Both the position numbers and the translations under genes were made by a program. DNA of 49,523 bases from positions 1 through 49,523 of the forward strand of contig JAFRHO010000007.1 of NCBI GenBank assembly GCA_017433245.1. Reading direction: 5' to 3'. Of the stretch, positions 2 through 46,175 are shown piece after piece. The notes under the pieces were generated by a model. The model was not told where the DNA came from, searched no databases, and saw only the letters and a program-made list of their open reading frames with translations. Every line of letters begins with the position of its first letter. Positions within the stretch are counted from its first letter, which is position 1. The DNA is from Candidatus Saccharimonadota bacterium (GTDB taxonomy: Bacteria; Patescibacteriota; Saccharimonadia; Saccharimonadales; Saccharimonadaceae).

Positions 2-1405
2 TGGGGCTATACTCTTACTTCTAATCCAAATAGCAGTACTGTCTTCTCCCCATTATCCACTACGGCCTCAGTTATTAAGACTCCATCCCAAACTGCCTCT
101 TCAGAAGCAGATATTAATGATACTTTTGATATTAACTATGGTGCTAAAGTAGATAATACAGTAGAAGTCGGTAATTACCAAATGGCTAATAACGGTGCTA
201 TAGTCTATTATCTTACTATGGATACTACTTGTACTCAATATACAGTATCCTTTAACCCTAATGGTGGTACTGGGACTATGGAAAATCAGGGAATTGAAAC
301 AGGAGAACCCACTAAACTTACCAGTGCAGATTCTTTAACCGCTCCACAGGGAGCATTGTACACCGATGCAGGCAATAACACTATTACTGGTGACCCAGAT
401 AAACTCTGGACCTTCTGGGGTTGGAATACAAGTGTAGATGGTACAGGTGATTGGTATAAAGATAAAGAAGCAGTAGAAAATCTCACAAGTGTAGGTTCTA
501 CTATTACTCTCTATGCGCAATGGAAACAAGCCACATTGGCCGATATGACAACCGGCACCTCAGTAACGACTGAAAAAGTTATAGATCACAACCTTATGCA
601 AGATATGAAACCAGAAGTCTGTTATAATTCTACTGCTTATTCTACAGATACCAGTTCAGATGCTCATAATCCATATGATGCATCTACTAATCCAAATGGT
701 TATCATACTATCACCCTATTAGATTATCGTGGTAAAGTCACTACAGGTGAAAACCCAGAATCCCCAGAATCATACACTGTCTCCAAACTCCCAGACAATC
801 TCTGTTGGATGACTAAAGACTTGAATCTAGGTAGGGAATCAGGTGGAGAGAACAATAATGGCACTGTTACTCTCACTCCTGATGATACTGATATCACAGC
901 AAATTTCACTCTTCCGGCTTCACCTACAACTTATACCACTGGTACCGTCGGTTACTATACTCCACAAATCTTGATTAACCACACCGTTACATCATATACT
1001 GTAAATGGTGTTTCGTATTCTCCTACTATTGGTCACTATTCCTGGGCTGCTGCTACTGCTACTAACACATCAATTACGGCTAGTGGCGAAATCACTACTT
1101 CTATCTGCCCTAAAAACTGGGACTTACCAACTCGTATGCAGTTCTATAATCTAAGAAGCGTGGGTTCAGTCACTAGCGCCACCATTGCTCATTCTGCTCC
1201 ATATAACTTCGTTTATGGAGGTTATCGTTATGCAGCCGAAGGGTATTATAATCAGACCAGTTATGGTTATTATTGGACCTCAAGTAATAGTAGCTCTAAT
1301 TATGGTTATTGGAATTATGTTTATAGCGGTGGTATTTATAACAGTTCCACTTCATCTGGGTATAAATACTATGGTGCTAATGTTAGGTGTGTAGCTTCGT
1401 TGGGA
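2..1405 (+). repeat. Long direct repeat, copy 1 (5' third of the giant surface gene)
   Basis: This stretch is nearly identical at DNA level to 5351-6760. The offset is 5349 at the start and 5355 at the end because the second copy has two extra codons in the TFTLP region. Long runs, for example around 640-850, match almost base for base, so the duplication is recent or kept alike by gene conversion. Confidence 0.85.
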
Positions 1406-4400
1406 AATATTACTATAAACTATAATGGTAACACAAATGATGGCGGTTCTACTGCCAGTCAAGAGAATGTGGAGATTACTGCTACCAAAGCTGCAAATAA
1501 TGGTTACATTAAGAATGGCTATTGGTTTAATGGGTGGAATACTGAGCCAGACGGTAGTGGTATATCTATTAGTGCTGATGCGTCTGTTTCTTCACTTAAT
1601 CCTAAGCCGAATAGCATCATTACTTTGTATGCTCAATGGTTGCCACAATACACGATCACCTATGTAAACAATTGCAAAACTTATGCAAGAACTAATTCTT
1701 CGTGCACTCAATCTGTCTCAAATGATACTAGTACACAAAGTATTGCTTTAGATAATAGTGGTGATGGTAGTGGCCCACTTGCTGCCTATAACAAGTGGAC
1801 TCTCGCTGGCTGGAAGATTACCGGCTGGACTACCAATGCCGATGGTTCTGGAACGGAATATAGAGTCAGTAGTACCTACACAGTACCAAGTGGTTCTAGT
1901 GCAGGCAGTGGTATTACTCTCTATGCCCACTGGGTTCCACTTTACTCCATACAGTATGATGGTAATGGCGCCAGTAACCCTAATGGTATGGGCACGACAA
2001 ATATCAGTGGCGTAAAAAGCGTTAAACAGATTAACGTAGGTGAGGGAGATTCTGTAATCCTTTTGCCTAGTAACTTTAAACGTGCTGGCTATGGTTTTGC
2101 TGGTTGGTCTACTAATCCAAATGCTACAGTAACTAGCGGTGATAAAATCTATGGTCCCATGGAAACCATAGACGCTCCCGCTTATCCAAATAACGGTACT
2201 AATATTATTACTTTGTATGCTGTCTGGATAGCGGCTGAGAGAGATGGTAGTAATGGCCTAGTCTATCTCCAAGATTTTACCACTAGTGATTGTGCTGCCC
2301 TTACGAAGACAGATTTCGATTCTTCTACTGGTATAATTACTCCAGGGAGTGTTATTGCTCTAACCGACAAACGTGATAACCAGGTCTATACAGTAGCTAA
2401 ACTTGCCGACAATAATTGTTGGATGATAGAGAATTTGCGTCTAGAGCATGCTGGCACTGTAGGAGATAGTATCAATGATAATGGTGTGACAAACCAAAGC
2501 CTTTCCCAGGGGTATGGTGGTTCTACTGGCATTTATGGTCATTTTGTCGGTCTTGCCGATTCGGAAACACGTTTTAATGGTGTGACAACTTCAAATACTA
2601 TTTATAAAGCTTCGGCCGCTTCACCAATTGATACATATGATCCTGTCAATAATATCTTAGAAGATATCGGTTTATCTAATTTTCCATCTTATCGCTTCCC
2701 ACGCTATAATAATAGCAATACAAATAGTTTAGTAGACGGCATTACATATACACAAGACTTTATTAAGGCTTCTAACCCAAGCGATAGCGGTACTAATTAT
2801 CGTACTAATTCGAATCTCTTTTCTTATGGCAATTATTATACTTGGCCTGCCGCCATAGCAAATACAAACTACTATTTGGGCCCAATTACTTCTGAATCTG
2901 CCGGTACTTCCATTTGTCCAACTAATTGGCATTTGCCATCTAGTGGTGGTACTACTAAGGAATATGGTATTCTTTCCCAAAATTATGGTGGTACTGGGGG
3001 AAGTCAATATTCTGCTAAAGATGGTGGTGAAGATATGAGTAAACGTCTTCGTACTTTTCCAAATAATTTTCTTTATGCCGGTAGTTTCACTGGTACTTAC
3101 ATCGGAAGTCGTGGTTCGAGCGCTTACTATTGGAGTAGGTCGGCGCTTGCCGGTGGCAGCTATGACTACCTTTCTTATCGTTTGCATTTTAATTCTGTGA
3201 ATTTCCATCCATCTGACGATGAAAGAAAGTTTTACGGCTTTACTGTTCGTTGTCTTATGAACCCATCCATGGTAGAAGTTGTTTTGGATAACAATGATAA
3301 TACGAGTTTTATCTCAAGAATCTATGGTGTACCAGATAATTTTGTAGATTTACCTCAAATTTCCAGAGCGGGGTATAGGTTTATTGGTTGGAATACTGCA
3401 GCGAATGGTTCCGGTACAAATTATACCAATAGTTATGCTATTCCGCCGGACTTATCTACGATTACTCTTTATGCTCAATGGAAGCCGGTCTATTCCATCC
3501 AATATGACGGTAACGGAGCAGATAATCCTAATGGTATGGGTACAACTGACGCAAATGGCATTAAGAGTGTAAAACAAACTGAGATAGTCGAAGGTATCAG
3601 CGTAGAGCTACTTGCTTCTAATTTCAAACGAGCAGGATATGGTTTTGCAGGTTGGTCTACAGATCCAGACGCTTGGGCTCACTTTACGGACAATGACAGC
3701 ACGAACGACCCAATCATCTATGGTCCAATGGAAACTATCTCTGCTCCCGCTTATCCGAATAACGGCACTAGTATCAATACTATGTATGCAGTCTGGGTCC
3801 CAGCCAAAAAAGATGGCAGCAACAATCCAATTTATTTACAAGAATGGGATAATCCAACTGACACTACCGATGGTTGTGCTGCTCTCACTTCCACTAGCTT
3901 CAATAGTACCACTGGTAAAATCACTGCTAGCAAGAATAGTATTATTGCATTGACTGACAAGCGCGACGATGAAGTATATGCCATTGCCAAACTAGCCGAC
4001 GATAATTGTTGGATGATAGAAAACTTGAGACTAGAGCACGAAGGCACCGTAGGGAGCAATAAGAACGATTCAAGCGTCACGAATGAGTCTCTTTCCCAAG
4101 GTTATGGTGGCACTCCTAGTGTTTATGGTACTTTTGTAGGCTTACCAAATTCAGAGTCATCTTGGGACACTACGTCTAATAGTATCTACAAATCTTCCGC
4201 CAATCCACCAGTAGATACTTATGATCCAATTAATAATGTGCTAGAAGATATTGGCACTACTAATTATCCAAGCTATCGTTTCCCCCGCTATAACAGTGAC
4301 AACACAAAGAGTCTAATAGATAGCACTACCTATACTCAAAACTATACCAATACTTCGAGTCCATCTGGTAGCGGTACTTTCCCGAGGGTAAATCTCTACT

Positions 4401-4846
4401 CCTATGGCAACTACTATACTTGGGCGGCCGCGAAAGCAAGTACTAACTATTTTGGAAGCTCTTCTGTCTCTGAATCAGTCGATACATCTATCTGCCCGGC
4501 TGGTTGGCACTTACCTAGTAGTAATGGGGCTAGCAAAGAATACGGTACTCTTTCTCAGAGCTATGGTGGAACCGGAAATAATCAGGGTAGCACCGCTAGT
4601 GCGGGCGATGTTATGTCGGAACGTTTTCGCCGTTTTCCTAACAATTTCCTTAACTCTGGCTATTTCAACGGTTCATCCGCGAGCGAGCGCGGCTCGAGTG
4701 GTCAATACTGGAGTAGGACGGGGGTTAGTTACGGCTACGATCCTAACTCTTATTACCTTTCCTTGGATTCTACTTCATTATTCCCGTCTTGCAACTATTA
4801 CGTTAGAAACAATGGTTTTAGTGTGCGTTGTCTGATGGGAAGTTAG
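2..4846 (+). CDS. Giant secreted InlB-repeat/FISUMP surface protein, 5' end outside window
   Basis: The reading frame is open from base 2, so the start lies upstream; alignment with the downstream paralogue suggests about 113 residues (signal peptide and part of the N-terminal domain) are missing. Listeria-Bacteroides repeat units are visible, each ending in LYAQW, LYAHW or LYAVW-like motifs (six of them). They alternate with three FISUMP-type modules (Fibrobacter succinogenes major paralogous domain) at about 780-1400, 2400-3265 and 3985-4843, recognised by CWM, CPxxWHLP, YYWSR and a final VRC motif. It ends in VRCLMGS, with no LPXTG and no C-terminal membrane helix. The family occurs on secreted surface proteins; the exact binding partner is unknown. 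An adhesin or host-contact role is inferred. Cysteines are paired within modules, suggesting disulfides. Confidence 0.9.
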   Translation, partial: WGYTLTSNPNSSTVFSPLSTTASVIKTPSQTASSEADINDTFDINYGAKVDNTVEVGNYQMANNGAIVYYLTMDTTCTQYTVSFNPNGGTGTMENQGIETGEPTKLTSADSLTAPQGALYTDAGNNTITGDPDKLWTFWGWNTSVDGTGDWYKDKEAVENLTSVGSTITLYAQWKQATLADMTTGTSVTTEKVIDHNLMQDMKPEVCYNSTAYSTDTSSDAHNPYDASTNPNGYHTITLLDYRGKVTTGENPESPESYTVSKLPDNLCWMTKDLNLGRESGGENNNGTVTLTPDDTDITANFTLPASPTTYTTGTVGYYTPQILINHTVTSYTVNGVSYSPTIGHYSWAAATATNTSITASGEITTSICPKNWDLPTRMQFYNLRSVGSVTSATIAHSAPYNFVYGGYRYAAEGYYNQTSYGYYWTSSNSSSNYGYWNYVYSGGIYNSSTSSGYKYYGANVRCVASLGNITINYNGNTNDGGSTASQENVEITATKAANNGYIKNGYWFNGWNTEPDGSGISISADASVSSLNPKPNSIITLYAQWLPQYTITYVNNCKTYARTNSSCTQSVSNDTSTQSIALDNSGDGSGPLAAYNKWTLAGWKITGWTTNADGSGTEYRVSSTYTVPSGSSAGSGITLYAHWVPLYSIQYDGNGASNPNGMGTTNISGVKSVKQINVGEGDSVILLPSNFKRAGYGFAGWSTNPNATVTSGDKIYGPMETIDAPAYPNNGTNIITLYAVWIAAERDGSNGLVYLQDFTTSDCAALTKTDFDSSTGIITPGSVIALTDKRDNQVYTVAKLADNNCWMIENLRLEHAGTVGDSINDNGVTNQSLSQGYGGSTGIYGHFVGLADSETRFNGVTTSNTIYKASAASPIDTYDPVNNILEDIGLSNFPSYRFPRYNNSNTNSLVDGITYTQDFIKASNPSDSGTNYRTNSNLFSYGNYYTWPAAIANTNYYLGPITSESAGTSICPTNWHLPSSGGTTKEYGILSQNYGGTGGSQYSAKDGGEDMSKRLRTFPNNFLYAGSFTGTYIGSRGSSAYYWSRSALAGGSYDYLSYRLHFNSVNFHPSDDERKFYGFTVRCLMNPSMVEVVLDNNDNTSFISRIYGVPDNFVDLPQISRAGYRFIGWNTAANGSGTNYTNSYAIPPDLSTITLYAQWKPVYSIQYDGNGADNPNGMGTTDANGIKSVKQTEIVEGISVELLASNFKRAGYGFAGWSTDPDAWAHFTDNDSTNDPIIYGPMETISAPAYPNNGTSINTMYAVWVPAKKDGSNNPIYLQEWDNPTDTTDGCAALTSTSFNSTTGKITASKNSIIALTDKRDDEVYAIAKLADDNCWMIENLRLEHEGTVGSNKNDSSVTNESLSQGYGGTPSVYGTFVGLPNSESSWDTTSNSIYKSSANPPVDTYDPINNVLEDIGTTNYPSYRFPRYNSDNTKSLIDSTTYTQNYTNTSSPSGSGTFPRVNLYSYGNYYTWAAAKASTNYFGSSSVSESVDTSICPAGWHLPSSNGASKEYGTLSQSYGGTGNNQGSTASAGDVMSERFRRFPNNFLNSGYFNGSSASERGSSGQYWSRTGVSYGYDPNSYYLSLDSTSLFPSCNYYVRNNGFSVRCLMGS

Positions 4847-4942
4847 CTAGGCCAGGTAAACAAACTCCAAATTAATGGAGGTGTCTGCATTGACAAACGG
4901 ACCTTCTGAAAAACAAACTCCCCACAAACTTCCACAAAACCC

Positions 4943-4971
4943 TTGTATTTTATTCACGAGCATTATATAAT
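4943..4971 (+). promoter_or_regulatory. Promoter of the second giant surface gene
   Basis: TTGTAT at 4943-4948 and TATAAT at 4966-4971 are separated by 17 bp. The expected start is near 4978, giving a leader of about 34 nt with AAAAGG upstream of the ATG at 5012. The rest of the 165-base gap 4847-5011 holds only a weak CTCCA/TGGAG hairpin near 4868-4884 and no gene. Confidence 0.75.
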
Positions 4972-5011
4972 AGAATCATCAAAAGTCATACATAGATAAA
5001 AGGTGTTTAAC

Positions 5012-8000
5012 ATGCGTACAAAAACAAATCGTCTCGCAGTGCTAGGGCTACTTGTAGCTTATTTTCTGTTCTCATTCCAAATAAATGCTAGCAGTGCTTC
5101 AGCTTACACTGCATCTATTACTACGAATGACTCTATTTCATTTGATATCTCTCCTTCAGGTGATGGTACTTCTATTCATAGTGAATCCATTAACGTTCAA
5201 TCAGACTGTAGAGCAGGATATAACCTTACTATAGCTACTCCAGAAGGTAGTAGTCTATATAAGTATGAGAATAATACTCAAGCAGGAACCGCTTCCTTTA
5301 CAGCAGTAGATGGTACTTCTGCACTAAATAGTGATAATAACACTAACAAATGGGGCTATACATTAACCACTAATCCAACCAGTAGTACAGTCTTTCTTCC
5401 ACTCTCGTCTACTCAAGCAGTCCTAAAGACTCCATCTCAAACTGCCTCTTCAGAAGCAGATATTAATAATACTTTTGATATTAACTATGGTGCTAAAGTC
5501 AGCGATTCAGTTGACCCAGGTACTTACCAAATGGCTAATAACGGTGCCATTGTCTATTACTTAACTATGGATACCACTTGTACCCAATACACAGTATCAT
5601 TTAATGCTAATGGTGGTACTGGTACTATGGAGAATCAGGGAATTGAAATTGGAGAATCTACTAAACTAACTAGTGCAGATTCTCTAACCGCTCCACAGGG
5701 AGCATCGTACACCGATGCAGGCAATAATACTATTACTGGTGACCCAGACAAACTCTGGACATTCTGGGGTTGGAATACTGCTATAGACGGTACAGGTGAT
5801 TGGTATAAGGATAAGGAAGAAGTAGAGGATCTTGCAAGTGTAGGTTCAACTATTACTCTTTATGCTCAATGGAAACAAGCCACATTGGCTGATATGACAA
5901 CCGGTACCTCAGTAACGACTGAAAAAGTTATAGACCATAACGAAATGCAAGATATGTCTCCAGAAACCTGTTATAATTCTACTGCCTACTCTACGGATAC
6001 TAGTTCAGATGCTCATAATCCATATGATGCATCTACTAATCCAAATGGTTATCATACTATCACCCTATTAGATTATCGTGGCAAAGTTACTACAGGTGAA
6101 AACCCAGAATCCCCAGAATCATATACTGTCTCCAAACTCCCAGACAATCTCTGTTGGATGACTAAAGACTTGAATCTAGGTAGGGAATCAGGCGGAGAGA
6201 ATAATAATGGCACAGTTACGCTTACTTCGGAAGACACTGACCTTGCAGACGATGCCACCTTTACTCTTCCGGCTTCACCTACTGCTTATACAACTGGTAC
6301 TGATGGTTACTATACTTCGCAAATCTTGATTAATCACACAGTTCCTTCGTATACTGTAAATAGCATTTCTTATTCTCCCACTATTGGTCACTATTCTTGG
6401 GCTGCAGCTACTGCTACTAATACTTCTATTTCAGATACTGGCGATATCGCTACTTCAGTTTGCCCTAAGAACTGGGATTTACCAAATCGTATACAGTTTT
6501 ATAACTTAAGAACCAAAGGTTCAATTACTAGTTCCACTATCGCTCATGAGGCTCCATATAACTTTGTTTATGGTGGTTATCGTAATGCAGCCGAAGGGTA
6601 TTATAATCAGACTAGCTATGGTTATTATTGGACTTCAAGTAATAGTAGTGCTGGTTATGGTTATTGGAATTATGTTTACAGTAGCGGTATTTATAGTAGC
6701 TCTACTTCATCTGGCTATAAATACTATGGTGCTAAAGTAAGGTGTGTCGCTTCGCAGGGTGGAATCACGGTGAATTATGACGGTAATGGCACGACGGAGT
6801 ACCCGACTACTGGAGAAGTGGCTTCGCAGACGAATGTTGAAATTAATAGTGCAAGTGCGCAGCCTGGTACAGGGTTTACCAGATTTGGTTGGACTTTTAG
6901 TAATTGGAATACGGAGCCCGATGGTAGTGGGATATCAGTTGCTGCAAACGCTTCTCTTTCAGCTTTAGGTTTTAGTCCAAACGAGACTATTACTTTGTAT
7001 GCTCAGTGGAATCCACAATACAATATTACTTATGTGAATAATTGTTATTCTTATGCTAGCAACAGTGCAGCTTGTACTCAAGATGATTCTGTTAATACTA
7101 GCGAACAAAAAATTAATATAGATTCTTCCGGTAATGGTTCTGGAACCCTGGCGGGTTACAATAAGTGGACTATGAGCGGCTGGAAAATAAAAGGTTGGTC
7201 TATTGTGTCAGATAATGCCAGTGGTGCAAATGCTGAATACCAGGTAAGTGAAAGATATCAGGTTACGAACGCGAATGCTGGAGATGGAATTACTTTGTAT
7301 GCGCACTGGGTGCCGGTTTATTCTATACAGTACGATGGCAATGGTGCAGATAACTCGAACGGAATGGGTACTATTAATGCTAGTACTGGCGTTAAGACTG
7401 TAAGACAAATAAACATAGGTGAGGGTGACCCAGTTAGATTGCTTGCATCTAATTTTAAGCGTGCAGGATACAGTTTTGTTGGGTGGTCGACCAATCCTAA
7501 CGCTACTGTTAATGGTAATGATAAGATTTATGGTCCTAATGAAAGAATAACGGCTTTTCCATATCCTAATAATGACTCTGGCATCATTACGCTTTATGGG
7601 GTTTGGATTGAGGCGGAAAAGGATAGCAATAATAATCCGATTTATCTCCAAGATTTTGGTCCTACAGAATGTAGTAATCTTACTAGGGCTAGTTTTGATA
7701 AGACTACAAAGGAAATAACTGCTGGTAGTGTGATTGCTTTGACTGATAAGCGTGATAATGAGGTGTATGCTGTGGCTAGGCTTGCGGACGGTAGATGTTG
7801 GATGATTGAGAATTTAAGACTGGAGGCACCTAATACCGTGGGAAATAATATGAACGATTCTAGCGTAACAAACGAAAGCTTGTCTCAAGGTTATGGTGGG
7901 GTGTTTACTGGTCTTGCCAATGCTGAGGCGGTATCTGCTTTTAAAACTACTAATGCGAATAGTTTATATAGCCTTGTGGCGGATGGTAATAAAAATGTAA

Positions 8001-9925
8001 TTGAAGGTGGTGATCAGTATCGTTTCCCGAGATATAATAATGATAACATCGTCAATGCATTATCTAGCCCGAGTTACACTGTGAACCTTGCTGACCCATA
8101 TGTATCAAATCCATCTACTACAGGTACTTACCCAACATCTTCTGTATCTTCATATGGAAATTATTATACGTGGAGTGCTGCAATGGCGAATACGAATAGC
8201 GGTGCTTCTTATACTTCTTTATGTTCTTCGGGCTGGACTTTACCATCTGGCGATAGCAAGGTTGGGAACTTTAGTTTGCTGTATCAGGCTTATGATGGAG
8301 AGAATAATGAACATTTTATTTCAAATTTATTACGTAGTTATCCAAATAATTTTATGTTGTCTGGTGAAGTATATATTCGTAACTCACCAACTCTTTATGG
8401 ACGAGGGTCTAGCGGTTATTATTGGAGTAGAACAAGCGATTCGAGTATTTTGGCATATTATTTGTTAATGCAAAATGGTGCTGGGACCCGTAATGATGGG
8501 AGTGTTGGTCCAAGTAACTCAGACGGGAGAGGCTATGGGAAGACTGTGCGTTGCTTCGTTGATGATTCTTATTCCATTCAATATGATGGCAATGGTGCAG
8601 ATAACCTTAATGGTATGGGTACTCTTGATGTATCAACTGGCGAAAAGAGTATACAACAGACAAACGTATCTGAAGGGATGGACGTAAACCTTCTTGCTTC
8701 CAATTTTAAACGTGATGGCTATGGTTTTGTGGGTTGGTCTTTTGATCCAGATGCTTGGACTCACTTTACAGATGATGATACAACCAATGATTCAGATATC
8801 TATGGTCCAGCTGAGACTATAAAAGCCCCAGCACGTCCGGCTAGTGGTATAAAACCTTTGTATGCTATTTGGGCGCCTGCTAAAACTAGTGGCGGCAACC
8901 CAGTTTACTTACAGGATTTTGGTGTTTCAGAGTGTGCTACATTGACTGAAACTGATTTTGATGCTACTACTGGTCGGATTATCGTTGATAAAGATAACGT
9001 AGTTGCTTTAACTGATAAACGCGATAATCAAGTTTATACCATTGCTCGACTCGCTGATGGTAACTGTTGGATGGTTGAGAACTTAAGGTTGGAGTCTGCT
9101 GGGACAATGGGCAATAATGTTAATGATAGTAATGTGACTAACCAGTCTTTGGCTCAGGGTTATGGTGGCACTATAGGCCAATATGGTAGTTTTGTGGGGC
9201 TGGCTGATCCAGAATCCAGTGGATTTAATAGTAATGCTGTTGCGAATAGTGTGTATAAATCATCGGCTAGTTCGCCAGTAGATACTTATGATCCGATTTT
9301 GGGAACTTTGGAGGATATAGGTACAACTAATTCACCGGGTCATCGTTTCCCGCGCTATAATAATACTAATACTAATAACTTGGTAGATGAACCTACATAT
9401 GTTCAAGATTATTACATTCCGTCAAATCCCAGCGATGTTAGTGGTAATTACCGTATTGATTCTAATATACATTCTTATGGGAACTATTATTCTTTTGCTG
9501 CTGCGATGGCGAATACTGATTATTTTGCTGATTCTTCTAGTTCTGAATCTGCTGGAACATCGATTTGCCCATACGGTTGGCATTTGCCATCGAGTGGCGA
9601 TACCACGAAAGAATTCGCTATTCTTTCTCAGAGTTACGGTGGTACCGGTGGCGAACAAAATGCTACTAGTAGCGATGGTGCTATTATGAGTAGGCGTTTT
9701 CGTACCTTTCCTAACAATTTCCTCTATTCTGGTGGCTTTAGTGGCTCGTCCGTAGGTGATCATGGTACGACTGGCTTTTACTGGAGTCGATCAGCGTATA
9801 GTCGTGATAACGCTTACTATCTGCGTCTAAGCTCTAGTTATTTCAGTCCATCAACTGTCTATGGGCTTATGGGTAACCTTAAATATTTTGGATTTAATGT
9901 GCGCTGCCTCGTTTCGGGGTCGTAA
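5012..9925 (+). CDS. Giant secreted InlB-repeat/FISUMP surface protein, paralogue 2
   Basis: This 1,637-residue protein starts at the ATG at 5012, behind AAAAGG, rather than at the in-frame GTG at 5003. A signal peptide covers residues 1-31 (hydrophobic core LAVLGLLVAYFLFSF, cleavage after SASA). An N-terminal domain follows up to about residue 195. Five Listeria-Bacteroides repeats end in LYAQW, LYAQW, LYAHW, LYGVW and LYAIW. Three FISUMP modules lie at about nt 6130-6755, 7770-8560 and 9045-9920, the last ending VRCLVSGS. Compared with the upstream paralogue it lacks one repeat between FISUMP modules 2 and 3. No sortase motif or C-terminal helix is seen, so retention would depend on the N-terminal domain or another system. 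Codons are T/A-ending, unlike the G-ending housekeeping genes. Confidence 0.92.
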   Translation: MRTKTNRLAVLGLLVAYFLFSFQINASSASAYTASITTNDSISFDISPSGDGTSIHSESINVQSDCRAGYNLTIATPEGSSLYKYENNTQAGTASFTAVDGTSALNSDNNTNKWGYTLTTNPTSSTVFLPLSSTQAVLKTPSQTASSEADINNTFDINYGAKVSDSVDPGTYQMANNGAIVYYLTMDTTCTQYTVSFNANGGTGTMENQGIEIGESTKLTSADSLTAPQGASYTDAGNNTITGDPDKLWTFWGWNTAIDGTGDWYKDKEEVEDLASVGSTITLYAQWKQATLADMTTGTSVTTEKVIDHNEMQDMSPETCYNSTAYSTDTSSDAHNPYDASTNPNGYHTITLLDYRGKVTTGENPESPESYTVSKLPDNLCWMTKDLNLGRESGGENNNGTVTLTSEDTDLADDATFTLPASPTAYTTGTDGYYTSQILINHTVPSYTVNSISYSPTIGHYSWAAATATNTSISDTGDIATSVCPKNWDLPNRIQFYNLRTKGSITSSTIAHEAPYNFVYGGYRNAAEGYYNQTSYGYYWTSSNSSAGYGYWNYVYSSGIYSSSTSSGYKYYGAKVRCVASQGGITVNYDGNGTTEYPTTGEVASQTNVEINSASAQPGTGFTRFGWTFSNWNTEPDGSGISVAANASLSALGFSPNETITLYAQWNPQYNITYVNNCYSYASNSAACTQDDSVNTSEQKINIDSSGNGSGTLAGYNKWTMSGWKIKGWSIVSDNASGANAEYQVSERYQVTNANAGDGITLYAHWVPVYSIQYDGNGADNSNGMGTINASTGVKTVRQINIGEGDPVRLLASNFKRAGYSFVGWSTNPNATVNGNDKIYGPNERITAFPYPNNDSGIITLYGVWIEAEKDSNNNPIYLQDFGPTECSNLTRASFDKTTKEITAGSVIALTDKRDNEVYAVARLADGRCWMIENLRLEAPNTVGNNMNDSSVTNESLSQGYGGVFTGLANAEAVSAFKTTNANSLYSLVADGNKNVIEGGDQYRFPRYNNDNIVNALSSPSYTVNLADPYVSNPSTTGTYPTSSVSSYGNYYTWSAAMANTNSGASYTSLCSSGWTLPSGDSKVGNFSLLYQAYDGENNEHFISNLLRSYPNNFMLSGEVYIRNSPTLYGRGSSGYYWSRTSDSSILAYYLLMQNGAGTRNDGSVGPSNSDGRGYGKTVRCFVDDSYSIQYDGNGADNLNGMGTLDVSTGEKSIQQTNVSEGMDVNLLASNFKRDGYGFVGWSFDPDAWTHFTDDDTTNDSDIYGPAETIKAPARPASGIKPLYAIWAPAKTSGGNPVYLQDFGVSECATLTETDFDATTGRIIVDKDNVVALTDKRDNQVYTIARLADGNCWMVENLRLESAGTMGNNVNDSNVTNQSLAQGYGGTIGQYGSFVGLADPESSGFNSNAVANSVYKSSASSPVDTYDPILGTLEDIGTTNSPGHRFPRYNNTNTNNLVDEPTYVQDYYIPSNPSDVSGNYRIDSNIHSYGNYYSFAAAMANTDYFADSSSSESAGTSICPYGWHLPSSGDTTKEFAILSQSYGGTGGEQNATSSDGAIMSRRFRTFPNNFLYSGGFSGSSVGDHGTTGFYWSRSAYSRDNAYYLRLSSSYFSPSTVYGLMGNLKYFGFNVRCLVSGS
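5351..6760 (+). repeat. Long direct repeat, copy 2
   Basis: Second copy of the DNA repeat at 2-1405. Similarity fades just after the VRCVAS codons of the first FISUMP module; the later modules are only protein-level homologues. Confidence 0.85.
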
Positions 9926-16747: not shown

Positions 16748-18520
16748 ATGGAAAAGATACGTAATTTTTGCATCATTGCGCACATTGACCATGGTAAGTC
16801 GACGATTGCGGATCGGATGATGGAATTGACTGGTACGGTAGAGAAGCGCGAGATGAAGGCGCAGCTCCTTGATTCGATGGAATTAGAGCGCGAAAAGGGT
16901 ATTACGATTAAGTTGACGCCAGTGACGATGCAGTGGAATGGTTATGTGCTGAATTTGATTGACACGCCGGGGCATGTGGATTTTTCGTATGAGGTGTCGC
17001 GGTCTCTTCAGGCAGTGGAGACGGCGGTGTTGGTGGTGGACGCGACGCAGGGGATTCAGGCGCAGACACTCGCGAATGTGTATTTGGCATTGGAACAGGA
17101 TCTCACAATTATTCCGGTGATTAATAAAGTAGATTTGCCGGCGGCGGATGTGGAAGGGGTAGCTGCGCAGATTATGAATTTATTGGGTTGTTCTAGGGAA
17201 GAGATTATCGAAGCGTCAGGTAAGACGGGATTTGGGGTGGATAAGATTCTCGACGCAGTGGTGGAGCGGGGACCGGAGCCGAGAACACTTAATACTGGTA
17301 TGACGAGGGCGCTGATATTTGATTCGTATTTTGATGATTATCGGGGGGTGGTTTTGTATGTGAGGATTTTCGAGGGGGAGATTCGCAAGAATGCGGAGAT
17401 ATTGATGATGGCGGCGGGGGTGAAGGGGTTAGCGCTTGAAGTGGGTGTGCTGACGCCGAAAATGACATCGCGAGAATCGTTGAAGACGGGTGAGATTGGG
17501 TATATTGTGACGAATCTGAAGACGACACGCGAAGCGAAAGTGGGTGATACAGTGACGCTTGCAAAGGAGCCAGCGTTGGAAGCTTTGCCGGGGTATAAGA
17601 ATGTACTACCGTTTGTGTATGCGGGGTTTTTCCCGGTGTCGAACGATCAATATAAGGAACTGAAGGAAGCGATTGAGAAGTTGTCACTGAGTGATTCGGC
17701 TTTACGTTATGAGCCGGAAAATTCACCGGTGCTAGGGTTTGGCCTGAGGATTGGATTCCTAGGGCTGCTACATATGGATATCATTCGAGAAAGGTTAGAG
17801 AGGGAATTTGGGCTGGACCTCATCGTAACGAACCCATCGACGAATTATGAAGTCGTGATGAATAATGGTGAGATTCGGGAGATAAAGTCGGCGTCGGATT
17901 TGCCAGATCCGTCGGAGATACGAGAAATCCGGGAACCGTGGGTGAAGGGGGAGATTATCTTGCCGAAATCGATGATTGGGAATGTGTTGAATTTAATTAA
18001 TGAGAAGCGGGGGCATCAGACGAATTTGTCGTATATTGAAGATCGGGCGGTGATTGATTTTGAGGCGCCGATGGCGAATCTGTTGACGGATTTTTATGAT
18101 CAGTTGAAGTCGGCGACGTCTGGGTATGCGTCGTTTAATTATGAGCTGGATGGATATCGGGCGGAAGACTTGGTGCGAGTGGACTTCTTGGTAGGGGGAC
18201 ATAAGATGGATGCACTGTCGGTGATGGCACACCGTTCGGAAGCAGATGGAATCGGGCGTGAAGTGACGAAGAAACTGAAGGAAGTGATTCCCAGGCAGAA
18301 CTACGAGGTGGCACTGCAGGCGGCGATTGGGGCGCGGATTATTGCACGAGAAACGATTGGTGCGTATCGAAAAGATGTAACGGTAAAGATTCATACTGGT
18401 GATAGAGACAGGAAGGCGAAATTACTTGAGAAGCAAAAACGTGGCAAGGCGCGAATGAAACGATTTGGCAAGATTGATATTCCGTCAGAAGCATTTACAG
18501 TGATGTTAAAACGTGATTAG
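16748..18520 (+). CDS. lepA: Elongation factor 4 (LepA) GTPase
   Basis: The 590-residue translational GTPase acts on the ribosome and is linked to back-translocation or 30S biogenesis. GTPase motifs are AHIDHGKST (residues 11-19), GITIKLTPV (switch I), DTPGHVDF (72-79) and NKVD (126-129). The LepA-specific parts are GFLGLLHMDIIRERLEREF and the C-terminal domain with ALQAAIGARIIARETI, RKDVTVKIHTGDRDRK and LLEKQKRGKARMKRFG. These distinguish it from TypA/BipA, which lacks this C-terminal domain. The length fits the family. It stands alone with a leaderless promoter, and the next promoter overlaps its end region. Confidence 0.97.
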   Translation: MEKIRNFCIIAHIDHGKSTIADRMMELTGTVEKREMKAQLLDSMELEREKGITIKLTPVTMQWNGYVLNLIDTPGHVDFSYEVSRSLQAVETAVLVVDATQGIQAQTLANVYLALEQDLTIIPVINKVDLPAADVEGVAAQIMNLLGCSREEIIEASGKTGFGVDKILDAVVERGPEPRTLNTGMTRALIFDSYFDDYRGVVLYVRIFEGEIRKNAEILMMAAGVKGLALEVGVLTPKMTSRESLKTGEIGYIVTNLKTTREAKVGDTVTLAKEPALEALPGYKNVLPFVYAGFFPVSNDQYKELKEAIEKLSLSDSALRYEPENSPVLGFGLRIGFLGLLHMDIIRERLEREFGLDLIVTNPSTNYEVVMNNGEIREIKSASDLPDPSEIREIREPWVKGEIILPKSMIGNVLNLINEKRGHQTNLSYIEDRAVIDFEAPMANLLTDFYDQLKSATSGYASFNYELDGYRAEDLVRVDFLVGGHKMDALSVMAHRSEADGIGREVTKKLKEVIPRQNYEVALQAAIGARIIARETIGAYRKDVTVKIHTGDRDRKAKLLEKQKRGKARMKRFGKIDIPSEAFTVMLKRD

Positions 18521-21522: not shown

Positions 21523-21936
21523 ATGGTTAACAATAAGCATAATGTTGATACTAAAACGTTGGTTATTGTACTGTCTTCTTTGTTGCTTGTGGCGATTGCG
21601 TTGGTGGTTGCTATTGTGTTTTTGCCAATGGCTAATAAACGGAATAATGATTATAGTGAAGATAATCTTGCTAAAGAATGTTTGGAAGCAGGTGAAGACA
21701 TGGATTTGTCAGAATGTTTAGAGGACAAGTCATTCTCATATTTTGAAGAGGGTGATTGTGAGAAGGCGTTGAAGGTTTATGATGATGTGCCGGTAGGATT
21801 GGTTAGCAAAGTGGAATTAGCGCATCTTTACGATGAAGCTTACTCGTTAAGTCTTTCTTGCGATGATGAATCTTTACAAAACTATTGGATGGGAAAGAAT
21901 GATGAAATTTCGAACCAGTTGGAGGCGACTGATTGA
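21523..21936 (+). CDS. Anchored 137-residue protein, module A
   Basis: A short cytoplasmic N-terminus, one helix at about 14-36 (LVIVLSSLLLVAIALVVAIVFL) and an acidic helical extracytoplasmic part with four Cys in CLEAGEDMDLSECLED and GDCEKALKVYDDVP, SLSCDDE. The second half looks like one TPR-type helix pair (FEEGDCEKALKVYDD). A paralogue of identical length lies at 26651, in front of a paralogue of the next gene. The stop TGA overlaps the ATG of the next gene by one base, so the two are translationally coupled. It likely helps export or anchor the large partner (inference from fixed pairing). Confidence 0.8.
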   Translation: MVNNKHNVDTKTLVIVLSSLLLVAIALVVAIVFLPMANKRNNDYSEDNLAKECLEAGEDMDLSECLEDKSFSYFEEGDCEKALKVYDDVPVGLVSKVELAHLYDEAYSLSLSCDDESLQNYWMGKNDEISNQLEATD

Positions 21937-24900
21937 TGAAAAGGAATGTAATAGTAATAGTATCAATATTTAGCTTGAGTTTGATTGTTCCATTGTTGAC
22001 TGATGGGCGCGCCTGGGCTGATGGGGCAGCACAACCAGGTGGAACTAGTTATGGTTCTGGTTCAGTCCCTATTTGTAGCGCAGAGTACTCTGGCATTCAT
22101 CAGCCTACATGTGAAGTAAATGGTGGAGGCAAGAGCTGGCGTATATATAGGGTAAGGGGCAATGGTCTTTCAGACTTAAATAATTTTACTGTGCCAAGTG
22201 GCCAGAAAAAATGGAAGGTCGTTCAAGGATCATATGGCGGAAAAGATGTCACTGGTTCGAAAGGGGTGCTTTCGGATTGTGTGAAAAATGATGTTCCATA
22301 TATTGTAATTTTTGGTTTGAATAGAGTGGTAGTATCAGGAGCTACTCCAGAGTTTTATGTTTCTTTAAGTCGAGAAAAGCCAGGTGGCGAATGTGGGAAA
22401 AACAGGGGTTGTTATTATAAATGGAACCATTACAATGAACTGGTAAAGAATATTAGTACGCCTCCTTATAATTCTAAGATTGCAAATAACACATTCTATG
22501 ATGGTCAGATTGTGTCGAAAGACCTTGCGAAGAAATTATATACTGATGCAGGGTTGAAATCATCATTAAGCTATACTAAGGTTGGGGCATTTTGTGCTTG
22601 GGATACAAAACCGCCTGAGTATACTTTGACTGCTTATGCGAGAGAATATGATGGGTCTTCAAATCCTTTGTTAAACAACGGGAAACCGATTGATGATGAT
22701 TCGTACAATGCTAATGAATCTGCATCGGTCAGTAATATGCATTTTGCGAAACCTGATGGTTATAGTTGGTTCAAATGGGATGTAGGTGGTTCGATTTGTC
22801 CAAATGAAACTGACAGTGAATGCGAGAATGATTCGATGCCGGCAAAGAGTACATCGGTAGCGGCTTATTATCTTCGAGATAAATTCGAAGGTAGAACTTT
22901 GGTGAGTGGGGCTGGTACTGGTGATACTGGCTTTGTAAAGACAAATAAGAGTGTTACTGTGGAATTGGATAATTGTGACAATGGGTGTACGGTCAAATTT
23001 GATCATCAAATGAAGAGGACTCAGGGTGTGGGTGCATCTTCGTATAGTATTTCGAGAGTTTCTAATTTATCATCTGCGGCCAGTGGTAATATGGGGTCTG
23101 GTAGTTTTTCTCAGACTGGACCGGCTTCGGTGCGGGATAGTGGTGATATAACTCTATATAGTGGTAATGTGGTTTGCGAAACATTAACGTTTCAACCACA
23201 AACTATTGCTGGTTCTAGTACGGCCTATTCGCAGGTTTGTGTGATAGCCAAAGCTCCGGCGCAGGTCGGTTCGTTTATTGATGCACAAGTGCGCGATCAA
23301 GACTCTGCCGATACTTACCATTCGTGGCAACATGAGATATATGGAAAACCTGGTGATAAAATTGAGTTTAAATCGTGGTATACTCCTACTGTTCAGGCAA
23401 TGGCTAATCGCGTGGTTAACATCATAAATAATACTGATGTTGGTTCGAAGGCATTAAAGGAACATGATGGTTGGAATAATGGCTATGATGTTAATAGTAA
23501 TATAGATGCATTAAAGTACCAAAAACAAGGCACTATTGGTGATACGACTACTTTGTCTGGGGAGAATAGTCATAATGCGGTTTCTAGTAATGCTGGCTCG
23601 TACATCTATGAAAAGGCTAGAACGAATGGATTGATAAAGAAAGTTCCGTTTAGTGTATCGTTTGGCGTTACTGCAGCTGCGAGTCCGAAAATCACTGCTA
23701 CGGTTGTTTGGGATGAAAAATCTGGAACGGCGTATGCACGTATTCCGTATAATTTCGTGAATTCAGCTACTGTTGATACTTCAGAAGATACTTTATTGTA
23801 TGCTGGAGAATCTAAGGATATTGAATCTTCTATCATTGTCCATCCAAAAGCTAATTCAATGACTATGAAAGATGGCGACAAAGAATATGCCACTAAGATT
23901 GGTGGTCAAGTAAACTATCGGTATATTGTATATACTCCTGGAGACATTAATAATCTTCCGGCAGCTAGGAAGGTGGATGGTGATAGGGATATTGATGATT
24001 TTTGTAATTATTTCCAAACTGCACTGAATTGTACTACTAGCGCTGTGAGGGGTTCTAAATCTGATGTTGTTGCTAATAACGATTATACAAAAGAGAATAA
24101 GGTGACGCTGAATCCCATCTCCTTCGTAGTAGATGATACTTCAGCCGGCAGTAAGAGATGTGTGGCGGTAGCAGTTTTCCCAGCCGACAGTGGCACTGAT
24201 GGCAATTACGATGACACAGAATACAAGGATTCTGATGGTGTGAGTCATTGGAGCATATCTGATTCCAAGTGTTATACTGTTGCTAAGCGTCCTAATCTTC
24301 AGGTGCTAGGCGGCAATATTTATTCCAGTGGTGGGATTCAAACTAGTTTGAGTATGAAGAAGCATTTGGCTGGGTTTAATAATTACGATGCATGGACAAC
24401 TAGCGATAATGCATACATCTTTGGTTCTTGGGGAGAGCTTGGACTTATTAATACGAATAGTGTTAAAGGATTTGCTAGTGGAGCTGGTTTAGGTTATCTA
24501 AAAAACGATAATGGGACAACTTGGCCAGCTTCAGTTTCAAATGATTTGATACAGGGTGACCATCCTGGTGGTTATTTGGGTAAATACGATTACTGTAAGC
24601 TAAGTTTGCTTACTTTAGCAAACGAATTGTGCCATAATAGTGGTGAAATTGCTGGCAATATAGGTACGGGAAGTGCTGTCAATGGTATAAGTAATGATAG
24701 AATGTCGATTCAGAATTTGGCTGAATCTTTGAGAATTGAGTCATCTCCTGTAACTGATGCTGGCGGTGGAATAACTATAAATGATGATGCTGCAACATAT
24801 TACGATATAAATAATAATGCAGTGATAAATGAAAGTATTATACCGTTTAATAAAACTATTCTGATACATGCAACTGGCAATATTACGGTTGCTGGTAATA

Positions 24901-25313
24901 TTAATTATCAACAAATTCCATATGACAATATATTGAATACTCCGAAGTTAGTTATTTATTCTGATGATACAATTATGATTAATTGTGGCGTTAATAGAAT
25001 AGATGCACTGTTGGTCGCAAAAACTGTCAATACTTGTGATAATGGTAATGACACTAATTCGGCGATAAATTCTAACCAGTTGTTTATTTATGGGGCTGTG
25101 ATAGCAAACGAATTGAAGGCTAATCGTACTTATGGGGCAGCAACTGGCGTTAATTCGATGGTATCAGCAGAGATAATTGATTTTGATCCGACGTTATATT
25201 TGTGGGAGGGAACTAATAATGATGCAGATGAGACTGGTAGTTCGGATGATGACTCCGAAAAAAACCTAAACTTAGAGTCTGTATATTTACGTGAGTTGGC
25301 GCCAAGACTTTAG
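21936..25313 (+). CDS. Large secreted surface protein, module A
   Basis: The 1,125-residue protein starts at the ATG at 21936, ten bases after GGAGG. A signal peptide covers residues 1-28 (ends RAWADG). A conserved N-terminal domain with ICSAEYSGIHQPTCEVNGGG and GGGKSWRIYRV extends to about 215. A Listeria-Bacteroides-like repeat lies near 225-320. A middle region has Ig-like strands including TSEDTLLYAGESKDIESSI. The C-terminal domain (about 780-1090) starts after CYTVAKRPNLQVLGG and has beta-helix-like turns (GGNIY, GNITVAGNINY, DDTIMINCG). The end reads AEIIDFDPTLYLWEG, an acidic linker, then YLRELAPRL. The final motif is shared with the paralogue at 27064 and may be a sorting or docking signal. 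No membrane helix follows it. Confidence 0.85.
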   Translation: MKRNVIVIVSIFSLSLIVPLLTDGRAWADGAAQPGGTSYGSGSVPICSAEYSGIHQPTCEVNGGGKSWRIYRVRGNGLSDLNNFTVPSGQKKWKVVQGSYGGKDVTGSKGVLSDCVKNDVPYIVIFGLNRVVVSGATPEFYVSLSREKPGGECGKNRGCYYKWNHYNELVKNISTPPYNSKIANNTFYDGQIVSKDLAKKLYTDAGLKSSLSYTKVGAFCAWDTKPPEYTLTAYAREYDGSSNPLLNNGKPIDDDSYNANESASVSNMHFAKPDGYSWFKWDVGGSICPNETDSECENDSMPAKSTSVAAYYLRDKFEGRTLVSGAGTGDTGFVKTNKSVTVELDNCDNGCTVKFDHQMKRTQGVGASSYSISRVSNLSSAASGNMGSGSFSQTGPASVRDSGDITLYSGNVVCETLTFQPQTIAGSSTAYSQVCVIAKAPAQVGSFIDAQVRDQDSADTYHSWQHEIYGKPGDKIEFKSWYTPTVQAMANRVVNIINNTDVGSKALKEHDGWNNGYDVNSNIDALKYQKQGTIGDTTTLSGENSHNAVSSNAGSYIYEKARTNGLIKKVPFSVSFGVTAAASPKITATVVWDEKSGTAYARIPYNFVNSATVDTSEDTLLYAGESKDIESSIIVHPKANSMTMKDGDKEYATKIGGQVNYRYIVYTPGDINNLPAARKVDGDRDIDDFCNYFQTALNCTTSAVRGSKSDVVANNDYTKENKVTLNPISFVVDDTSAGSKRCVAVAVFPADSGTDGNYDDTEYKDSDGVSHWSISDSKCYTVAKRPNLQVLGGNIYSSGGIQTSLSMKKHLAGFNNYDAWTTSDNAYIFGSWGELGLINTNSVKGFASGAGLGYLKNDNGTTWPASVSNDLIQGDHPGGYLGKYDYCKLSLLTLANELCHNSGEIAGNIGTGSAVNGISNDRMSIQNLAESLRIESSPVTDAGGGITINDDAATYYDINNNAVINESIIPFNKTILIHATGNITVAGNINYQQIPYDNILNTPKLVIYSDDTIMINCGVNRIDALLVAKTVNTCDNGNDTNSAINSNQLFIYGAVIANELKANRTYGAATGVNSMVSAEIIDFDPTLYLWEGTNNDADETGSSDDDSEKNLNLESVYLRELAPRL

Positions 25314-26650: not shown

Positions 26651-27064
26651 ATGGCAGAAAGACAGAATCCATTTGATACTAAGGTTTTGGTTACGGTGTT
26701 GTCGTTGTTGTCGGTTGTAGCAGTTGTGTTGATAGTGGCTAATATATTAGTGCCAGTTCTGAATGGCAGAAAATATGATTTTAGCGATAATAATCTTGCG
26801 AAGGAATGTTTGGAAATGGAGGATGATTCGTTAGCGGAGAGTTGTATAGAGGAGAAGGTTTATTCGTATTACGACGAGGGTGATTGCGAGAATGCATTGA
26901 AGGTATACGATGATATACCAGATGGTTGGTTCGAAGAAGATTCTATGGGGTATTTTTATGATGATGCATATTCGATAAGTCTTTCCTGTGAGGATGAGTC
27001 GTTGCAGGCGTATTGGGAGAATAAAAATAATATGTTTTCAAATCAGACGGAGGCAAGAAATTGA
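26651..27064 (+). CDS. Anchored 137-residue protein, module B
   Basis: Paralogue of the 21523 gene with exactly the same length. It has DTKVLVTVLSLLSVVAVVLI as membrane helix, the conserved NNLAKECLEMEDDS and EGDCENALKVYDDIP motifs and the same Cys positions (CLEM, SCIEE, GDCEN, LSCEDE). The stop TGA overlaps the ATG of the next gene by one base. Its repeated pairing with a large secreted partner supports a shared function such as assembly or retention of that partner. Confidence 0.8.
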   Translation: MAERQNPFDTKVLVTVLSLLSVVAVVLIVANILVPVLNGRKYDFSDNNLAKECLEMEDDSLAESCIEEKVYSYYDEGDCENALKVYDDIPDGWFEEDSMGYFYDDAYSISLSCEDESLQAYWENKNNMFSNQTEARN

Positions 27065-30000
27065 TGAGAAGAAGAATTATAGTTGGAATGATAGCAATAG
27101 GTTTGGGCGTATTGTTTTCTGCTTTACCTAGTAAGGGAGCTTCGGCTGTTGAAACTGGTAATGGTGGAACCGGGTCGGGTTCCGGTTCAGTTCCGACTTG
27201 TTCGGCAGAATACTCTGGCATTCATCAACCTCAATGCGGGGTAAATGGTGGGGGGAAGAGTTGGCGTATCTATAAAGTCAATAAAAACACTACTAATCTT
27301 ACAAGACTGAATTCGCTTAATTCTGTGCCAAGTGGTAAGAAAAAATGGAGGGTTGCACAGAGCGATACTGCTGGTGGGAATGATATTACTGGTAGTAATG
27401 GTCTATTGCAAAAGTGTGCCAGTAAAGGTTATCCATATATTATTCTGTTTGGTTTAAATACCGTTGCGGTAGCAAGTAACGCTACTCCAACTTTTTATGT
27501 AATGTTTAATCGAAATAAGAAGAATAATAAGTGTTCGAATAACAGGGGATGCTATTATAAGATGAATACTTATGATAGCATAAGTAGTGCTGCGGATTTG
27601 CAAAATAAGATAAAGAATAATACGTTTTATAGTGGACAAACGTTAACAAATGCAGCGGCTCTTGGTTTTTATAATAAAGAGTTAAAAGATGAGGGTAAAA
27701 GTACTGTTACGTCGAGTGCTTTTAAAGCTGTTGGTGGTTTTTGTTCTGATGGGGATGATGTTACTACTTCTGTTAAATACACATTAACGGCAAAATCGGT
27801 TGATACGAGTGGTGCTTCGCTAGCAAGTGTTGCTGGACTTGGTGATGATACTGATACCACGGATAGCGGTGATGAGGCTAGCGTTGTTCATGGTAGTAAT
27901 TATTATTATGAATTCCAGCATTGGAGTAATTATGCGAATGGTTCGGATAATATTGGGACTGGGACTGAGTATAGTAAAGTATTGACTTCTGATTATACTG
28001 TGTACGCAGTGTTTAGGAAATATCGCTTTACATTAACTGCTGCGTCAAGACAAATTAATAGTACTACTTCGTTGGCGGGCGTGACGGGTTTGAGTAATAC
28101 TAGCATGACCGTTGACAGGGGTGGGACAGCCACAGTCTCGCATGGTAATACCGAGACTGGTTTCACATTTAAATGTTGGAGTGAAGTAGAAAATACGGAT
28201 TGTTCTAGTAACGCGGGGACTGGAGCGAGCTATACGGTGAGTGATATGCAAAGTCATAAGACAATTTATGCTATATATGAGCCTTTCTCGGCAACTTCTA
28301 CGTTAGACATAAAAATCAAAAATTCGTCTAGTACAATTGATGCTTATAAGGATTATACAGATAATGATATTTATGCGAAACCAAATGACGTGATTGGTTA
28401 CAAGGTGACATATGCTCCTTTGGCGCAGGGTGGTGTTAATTTGAAGCCCCAACAAATAAAGATTGACAGTAGTGCAGCACAAGATAATGATGAGACTCCG
28501 CTTACTTTGCGTGTGCTATTTAATAATAAAAAAAGTACATCTTTGGGGGTTTGGTCAAATAATTTGATGGTTAGTGGGGGCTTAGGAAGTTATAGCGATC
28601 CGTTTGAGTATGAAGTCGGCGTAACGGATTCAAAGTCATTTGAGGCTACAAGCGAAGGGTCTCCTAGCACGTATTCTGTTCTTCCTAGTAAGGCAGGGAA
28701 TACATTGACTCAGACAGTCAGTTTGCAGCGTAACGCTAGTGGTACTACTCCGAAATCAGTAAGTATTGGTGTGAATGCCGGTAAAAGCATGGCAACTGTC
28801 GGGACTAGTTTAAGCGATTCTGTTAGAGTTAAAGTACCTTTTAATTTTGAGAATACTACTAGTGTTATTACACCGGAGGATACTCTTGTGTATGCTGGTG
28901 AGTCAGCTTCTTTCGATATTAGTATAAAGGTAAATAAAAGGCATAATGCTGCTTTAGATAGTGATTATGCCACGAGGGTGCCTGGCGCTAAATGGAAAAT
29001 TGGTATTAGCTATAATGGTAGTGCGTATAGTTGGGGTAATATTTGGAGCGGTACTTTAAATAATTCTGGTAATATGGACCCTACAAACGATGAAAAGAAA
29101 ACAGGCTTACCTATGACGATTCCTGATTTGAGTGCTGGGTCTAGAATTTGTATTCAGTCTGCTGTTTATCCGAAGGATAGTCACGATGATTTAAACTTGA
29201 GCCAGACTGCTTATGATGTCAATGATGCTGATTCTTGGGCTTATTCGACGCCGAAATGTTATACTGTCGCTAAACGTCCTAGCCTCCAAATTTGGGGTGG
29301 CAATATCTATACTGGTGGTGAGATTAATACTTCTTTGAGCAAGAAGAGACACTTGGCTGATTATAATAATTATAGTACGACATTGAATGATGAACAGTTG
29401 TATATCTTTGGCTCTTGGGGAGAATTAGGTATGGTATCGGTTGGTAAAGTCACTGGTTTTGCTAGTGGCGCGGGGTTAGGATACCTAAACAATGCTTGGC
29501 CGAATACGTTAGCTAATGATACTAGTAGCAAACAGGATCCTCGTCCTGGAGGATATTCAGGTGGCTATAATTTCTGTAAATTAAGTCTGCTGACTATGGC
29601 TAATGAAGTGTGTAAGAATAGCAATAGGGTTGCTGGAAGTGTGGGTAACCAAAGTGCAACTAATGGCATCAATAACGACAAGAATGCCATTGCGAATTTA
29701 GTTGAGGCATTGGGCGTGGGGGAGTCTGCTGAAGTTGGCGAGGGTGGAATTAATATAAATGCGGACACGGCTAAGTATTATAATGCTAATAGTAAGGTTA
29801 CGGTAAATGGTGGTACTTTACCAAAGAATAGAACAGTGTTGATATATGCAGAAGACGATATAACTATTTCTGGCGACATTCATTATGAGCAAAATGGATA
29901 CAGTAATTTGCTAGATGCTTCAAAAGTTGTGATTTATTCTAAAAATAATATTTTGATTGATTGTGGAGTTACCAGAATAGATGGATTGTTGATAGCTAAT

Positions 30001-46156: not shown

Positions 46157-46175
46157 TTCTTGACTTGAACGACAG

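Follow-up and report, generated by a model that had tools for sequence, protein, structure and literature searches.

Two very long genes stand in tandem on one strand at the start of a contig of a Candidatus Saccharimonadota bacterium (JAFRHO010000007.1, assembly GCA_017433245.1), and they raise the question of what such proteins are and how genes that are alike in their 5′ thirds came to differ farther on. The window analyzed here is that whole contig (C15), 49,523 of the 688,189 bases of an assembly that is 78% complete. Gene 1 (2..4846, + strand) encodes 1614 amino acids within the window and is open at the contig start, its 5′ end lying on contig C14, and gene 2 (5003..9925, +) is complete, with 1640 amino acids and a start at GTG 5003 or ATG 5012. 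With a probability of about two in three, both genes are mosaic giants within a large FISUMP protein family of a ruminant-gut Saccharibacteria genus; its proteins are C-type-lectin-like and probably secreted, diversity-generating retroelements (DGRs) act on the tips encoded by small genes, and the giants exchange blocks.

Both genes are long open reading frames (ORFs) matched by the FISUMP model TIGR02145 (151 bits, E 3.8e-44 for gene 1; 128 bits, E 7.4e-37 for gene 2; cut-off 41.65) and by Pfam Flg_new (PF09479, the InlB-type or Listeria-Bacteroides repeat; 76.1 and 48.5 bits, E 2.3e-21 and 9.4e-13; cut-off 27), so the tandem giant FISUMP/InlB-repeat genes described in a first-pass annotation of this DNA are real. 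Its count of six InlB-type repeats in gene 1 and five in gene 2 was borne out by a custom hidden Markov model, which is partly circular because it was built from the same two proteins; four and three of these repeats, respectively, pass Pfam individually. The extra repeat of gene 1, which has no equivalent in gene 2, comprises residues 1089-1161 (3266..3484, +). Each gene contains three FISUMP domains, located at 554..1399, 2234..3262 and 3806..4843 in gene 1 and at 5906..6754, 7607..8563 and 8873..9922 in gene 2 (all +). The first two of gene 1 and the first of gene 2 were recognized by the repeat/domain model and by a PF09603 search of the genome, which gave a C15 match above cut-off, and the second of gene 2 by the repeat/domain model. 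PF09603 was absent from a Pfam hmmscan of the two whole window proteins, which listed only Flg_new, a result that counts against the domain assignment.

The third FISUMP domain of gene 2 was modeled with a predicted local distance difference test score of 84 and a predicted template modeling score of 0.87. Structural comparison of this model returned five rows with Z of at least 2, the best of which was a weak 6.4, to the C-terminal domain of Legionella Lcl (8q4e; 18% identity), and the next 4.9, to the Bacteroides protein 4eps (14% identity). Both are what we take to be C-type lectin-like folds, and at Z below 8 they have only a common arrangement with the model. The predicted fold is in line with a C-type lectin-like domain but is not proof of one. 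Foldseek found no match in the PDB at E≤0.001 and a single match in BFVD (E 2e-4), to a phage protein annotated as Fibrobacter succinogenes major paralogous domain. A sequence search for solved structures gave one insignificant match (E 0.63), and phage records searched for a relative of gene 2 gave none. The variable proteins Mtd and TvpA have a C-type lectin-like binding tip with a variable surface; the FISUMP tails are likened to them by analogy only, neither being listed as a significant structural match.

The relationship between the two genes changes abruptly. DNA identity is 0.856 over codons 1-479 of gene 1 (2..1438, +; counterpart in gene 2 at 5350..6793, +) and 0.612 beyond them, and fourfold sites differ at 56 of 208 positions before the step and at 162 of 263 after it (p 5e-14). 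The sliding-window comparison proposed in the first-pass annotation thus finds a real step at ~1.4 kb, far beyond chance, past which the later modules diverge as described. The claim that the first 1.4 kb is nearly identical did not survive the comparison, as this part is 86% identical, with 50-codon bins ranging from 0.75 to 0.97. These bins are uneven at all sites (p 1e-4) and even at fourfold sites (p 0.73), so patchy conversion inside the common part is no more than a possibility. It was suggested that the shared 5′ third permits recombination between gene 1 and gene 2, with their 3′ modules changing places, and the step at codon 479 and the low synonymous divergence 5′ of it would agree with this; identity of only 86% and the even distribution of fourfold differences argue the other way, and we consider such exchange within the pair unlikely. 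That the 5′ part was simply duplicated onto a divergent gene of greater age, without subsequent exchange, seems quite improbable: a single partial duplication could give one identity step, but a second pair of giants, on contigs C12 and C13, shows a similar graded pattern, with identity dropping from 0.99 to saturation.

The nearest relatives of the modules of gene 1 bear on both of these explanations. Its N-domain, repeat 1 and first FISUMP domain are nearest to gene 2 (82, 91 and 88% amino acid identity), as exchange within the pair would predict, but repeat 4 is nearest to a giant of another metagenome-assembled genome (MAG; 85%) and repeat 6 to repeat 4 of the C12 giant (87%), a repeat at another position. 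Hence the later modules are closest to giants other than gene 2, and several modules have different relatives, contrary to a single duplication. A comparison in DNA windows likewise supports the mosaic structure of gene 1. Orthologous giants of 1332-1333 amino acids in three close relatives (L091, L092 and L093) allow a comparison akin to one between strains. Between the L091 and L092 genes, codons 1-335 hold 234 differences in 1002 sites and the remainder 59 in 2994, a single one of them from codon 939 on; between those of L092 and L093, there are 20 in 2007 sites through codon 670 and 154 in 1989 beyond it. The tails of L091 and L092 are the same, L093 departs from them by a few residues, all in its third tail, and the L079 and L080 giants of two further MAGs have zero differences. 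These identity switches, together with the near-unchanged tails, indicate that giants exchange blocks and are not seen to be hypermutated. They also weigh against duplication without later exchange and, as one pair of relatives has exchanged the very 5′ block, against exchange anchored in the shared 5′ part of the tandem. Recombination that swaps 3′ modules, as the first-pass annotation envisaged, is therefore supported by the mosaic relatives and the block switches, with the amendment that 5′ blocks move too. Its choice of the shared 5′ part as the exchange site suits the first three modules and fits poorly with the 86% identity and with the relatives of the later modules. Fixed copies without exchange, the outcome that it had set against its own proposal, are not what the L091, L092 and L093 giants display.

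The giants belong to an extensive family. PF09603 has 39 matches in the assembly, and at least 32 ORFs (31 in the fetched stretches plus the neighbor gene of a second retroelement) account for 70.6 kb, or 10.3% of its length; a later search located three further FISUMP tails outside the counted stretches. Of 36 genomes in the genus, this one included, TIGR02145 has matches in 35 (G024 is the exception), and it has none in 24 genomes from other families of the order. A phylum-wide draw yielded matches in 20 of 286 genomes, 13 of them above cut-off, with 11 to 22 matches in each of three genomes of the same genus and one to three in the other matching genomes. Multiple copies are thus found chiefly within the genus itself. 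Those relatives that have names are MAGs of Saccharibacteria, and many come from the ruminant gut; one domain comparison used 30 of 84 relative domains and the six window domains.

A source of variation in this family is found on contig C2, where two reverse transcriptase (RT) matches (RVT_1; 6413-7027 and 45583-46173), which also match PHROG 1423, each adjoin a repeat, the template, whose frame encodes an Asn-rich FISUMP tail. Within the coding part, template 1 and its neighbor FISUMP gene mismatch at 21 of 50 adenine sites and 0 of 142 other sites, and template 2 and its neighbor at 29 of 52 and 0 of 125. The two systems are DGRs, consisting of an RT and a template with adenine-only differences to gene 3′ ends. 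One of their two accessory ORFs has a weak DivGenRetAVD match (E 0.0049, below cut-off), and the order FISUMP gene, accessory ORF of 227-332 amino acids, RT and template recurs in relatives. In the 36 genus genomes, a template-like match lies within 1.5 kb of 32 of the 41 RT matches and none was seen for nine, a count for which short-frame rows were picked by eye and some on contigs lacking an RT match were omitted. A scan for Asn-rich frames identified 15 FISUMP templates, and five found later bring these to 20; of the other rows of the scan, L020 duplicates L039, L099 is a coding sequence and L070 is a template of a different type. In 18 same-locus pairs, which leave out L072 and L135 because no neighbor tail lies inside the fetched stretch, 400 of 439 mismatches fall at template adenines. 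The L070 sequence (345-516, genome G012) is an Asn-rich, non-FISUMP template beside an RT, with 27 of 28 mismatches at adenines. A sequence 3′ of a FISUMP gene (L040, C2:79608-79991) is similar, at 82% over 389 bases, to the stretch that comprises the region of template 1 with its flank and extends as far as the RT gene end; it is likely a remnant of an older DGR cassette. Four small FISUMP genes (C2:77809, C6:37342, C2:118486 and C8:36382) retain an excess of adenine differences from template 1 and, taken together, have the DGR codon footprint (28 of 28, expected 17.9); they are old or remote DGR targets.

The tails of the window genes behave differently from these small relatives. Those of the third domains (~4643-4834 and ~9713-9913) align with the DGR template, yet the six window tails have no adenine excess relative to template 1 (p 0.17-1.0), and relative to template 2 the p values are 0.05-0.71. 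Among 2960 comparisons of tails with templates (Bonferroni limit 1.7e-5), no window tail passes. As none of the six matches a template, the window genes are not demonstrable current DGR targets. The possibility that they are targets of the two genome templates was rejected, since their tails lack adenine-biased differences. When the two genes are compared in their third domains, 17 of 19 columns that are Asn in the template nevertheless differ, versus 12 of 34 other columns. This comparison used 19 Asn and 36 other columns, 34 of them with enough letters, at thresholds chosen by the author. The tail set was restricted to the 42 tails whose RC-motif end lies far enough from the cut start. The variable Asn columns fit a single putative binding surface, shaped by past hypermutation or by selection.

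That the variable columns are the Asn columns is also what would be expected if the window genes were current DGR targets whose template is absent from the assembly, an explanation that we regard as very improbable. The template TR_L134 of genome G343 is the best of the 20 for 11 of 12 giant terminal tails, with a weak adenine excess; its standing as their nearest template is suggestive only. The incompleteness of the assembly would leave room for a missing template. Conversely, no third template was found in the assembly, the two known ones being the top two of 41 matches and neither of them matching the window tails; these tails have no significant codon footprint, and giant tails are almost unchanged among close relatives. 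The reading that the window genes are mosaic, block-exchanging giants has several observations to answer in turn. At 78% completeness, a third template could be missing; the terminal giant tails do have a weak adenine excess relative to the nearest template of another genome (window p 0.042 and 0.009, uncorrected); the codon footprint in the window tails, although not significant, is 35 of 44 (expected 30.7, p 0.10); variability of the Asn columns could come from selection alone; the structural Z values of the FISUMP model are all below 8; and genomes G341 (L074) and G342 (L077) have 19 and 41 FISUMP-tail matches with no RT match. All of these weigh against that reading. The latter two genomes may have kept the repertoire after the retroelement was gone, or the retroelement may have been missed in assembly. 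On balance, the window giants look like recombined, settled copies, unlike the DGR-mutated relatives in the same genome.

A link between the two groups of genes is provided by a single locus, L083, in which a giant ORF of at least 1187 amino acids has a FISUMP tail in its interior; compared with TR_L106, a template of another genome, this tail is changed at 30 of 56 adenine sites and 1 of 133 other sites. Homology of the giant with the target gene of L106 extends for 584 bases (85%) and stops at the last codon ahead of the stop of that gene; past this point the giant continues in frame without the downstream flank of the template. Its genome has an RT match, whose surrounding 3.6 kb showed no FISUMP template. 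The L083 tail would in this one case lie out of the reach of the retroelement. A two-tier repertoire in a genome-reduced episymbiont, in which DGR cassettes make lectin tips in small FISUMP genes and recombination then stores useful ones in giant multi-FISUMP arrays at a distance from the retroelement, with the window pair as part of this archive and L083 as one example, can be offered only tentatively. The favored explanation itself proposes that new binding tips arise in small FISUMP genes through DGRs, that copies are dispersed, and that recombination fuses and reshuffles them into giant multi-tip adhesins, which might attach to host cells or gut surfaces. The giants would be displayed on the surface; the N-terminus of gene 2 has a hydrophobic segment, as judged by eye.

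The setting of the pair bears on whether it might be an assembly artefact, family members having been joined as a chimera. Many contigs end inside FISUMP genes (C2, C5, C6, C7, C11, C12, C13, C14 and C15), some with short identical overlaps, as in the 61 bases common to the ends of C5, C12 and C13 and the 141 common to the starts of C6 and C11; the FISUMP family itself therefore seems to break the assembly. Such ends would favor an artefact, but both genes lie on a single contig and are followed by core genes, and a giant with the same domain order occurs in another MAG (L077, 1643 amino acids), so we consider a chimera highly improbable. The first 139 bases of C14, reversed, are identical to the first 139 of the window; C14 carries a truB-like gene (the author's reading, with no family search on C14) and, after it, the beginning of gene 1, an ATG whose first encoded residues are hydrophobic. 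Downstream of gene 2 follow an aquaporin-like gene, PNPase and lepA. In G025 (L118) and L087 the truB-like and aquaporin genes adjoin without FISUMP genes between them, and in G028 (L121) a FISUMP gene sits on the other side of truB; the tandem pair is not fixed at this locus. The lepA (EF4) gene, intact in the window (16748-18520), is split in two relatives (L119 4980-7506 and L087 9275-15258) into a pair of open halves, the break falling near residue 181; in one relative the halves flank an aquaporin gene, in the other a FISUMP giant. Farther along the window, a 137-amino-acid ORF followed with a 4-base overlap by a TTG-start ORF of >1000 amino acids occurs twice in succession (21523-25313 and 26651-30285), and the second of the long ORFs has an InlB-repeat match.

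A genome of <1 Mb that gives about one-tenth of its length to a single family of variable binding proteins must draw considerable benefit from that family, and attachment to changing hosts is the obvious candidate. The family also explains why such assemblies break at FISUMP genes, and it makes testable an open question: what the retroelement targets of the Candidate Phyla Radiation (CPR) bind, and whether their products are stored for later use.

The components of this system have precedents in two papers; neither the genus-wide FISUMP-InlB repertoire nor giants holding DGR-made tails was found described in the literature searched. DGR target proteins with a Fib_succ_major (FISUMP) domain are known from human microbiomes, in an account that also names the variable proteins Mtd of a Bordetella phage and TvpA of Treponema (Ye 2014, PMC4159848). 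The DGR-neighbor genes described here resemble those targets in having the same domain family at the protein end and adenine-specific template copying. The window genes differ from them in carrying three FISUMP domains each and in not being detectable targets, and the repertoire in having a genus-wide extent, with dozens of copies and InlB-type repeats. DGRs of Patescibacteria/CPR have been published, and recombination of modular DGR targets has been proposed (Roux 2021, PMC8144416). Those DGRs and the C2 systems are alike in phylum, RT, template and C-terminal target; in the present case the FISUMP domain is recognized by TIGR02145. FISUMP as a DGR target and DGRs in this phylum are thus already known, and what appears to be new is this genus-wide repertoire with giant arrays.
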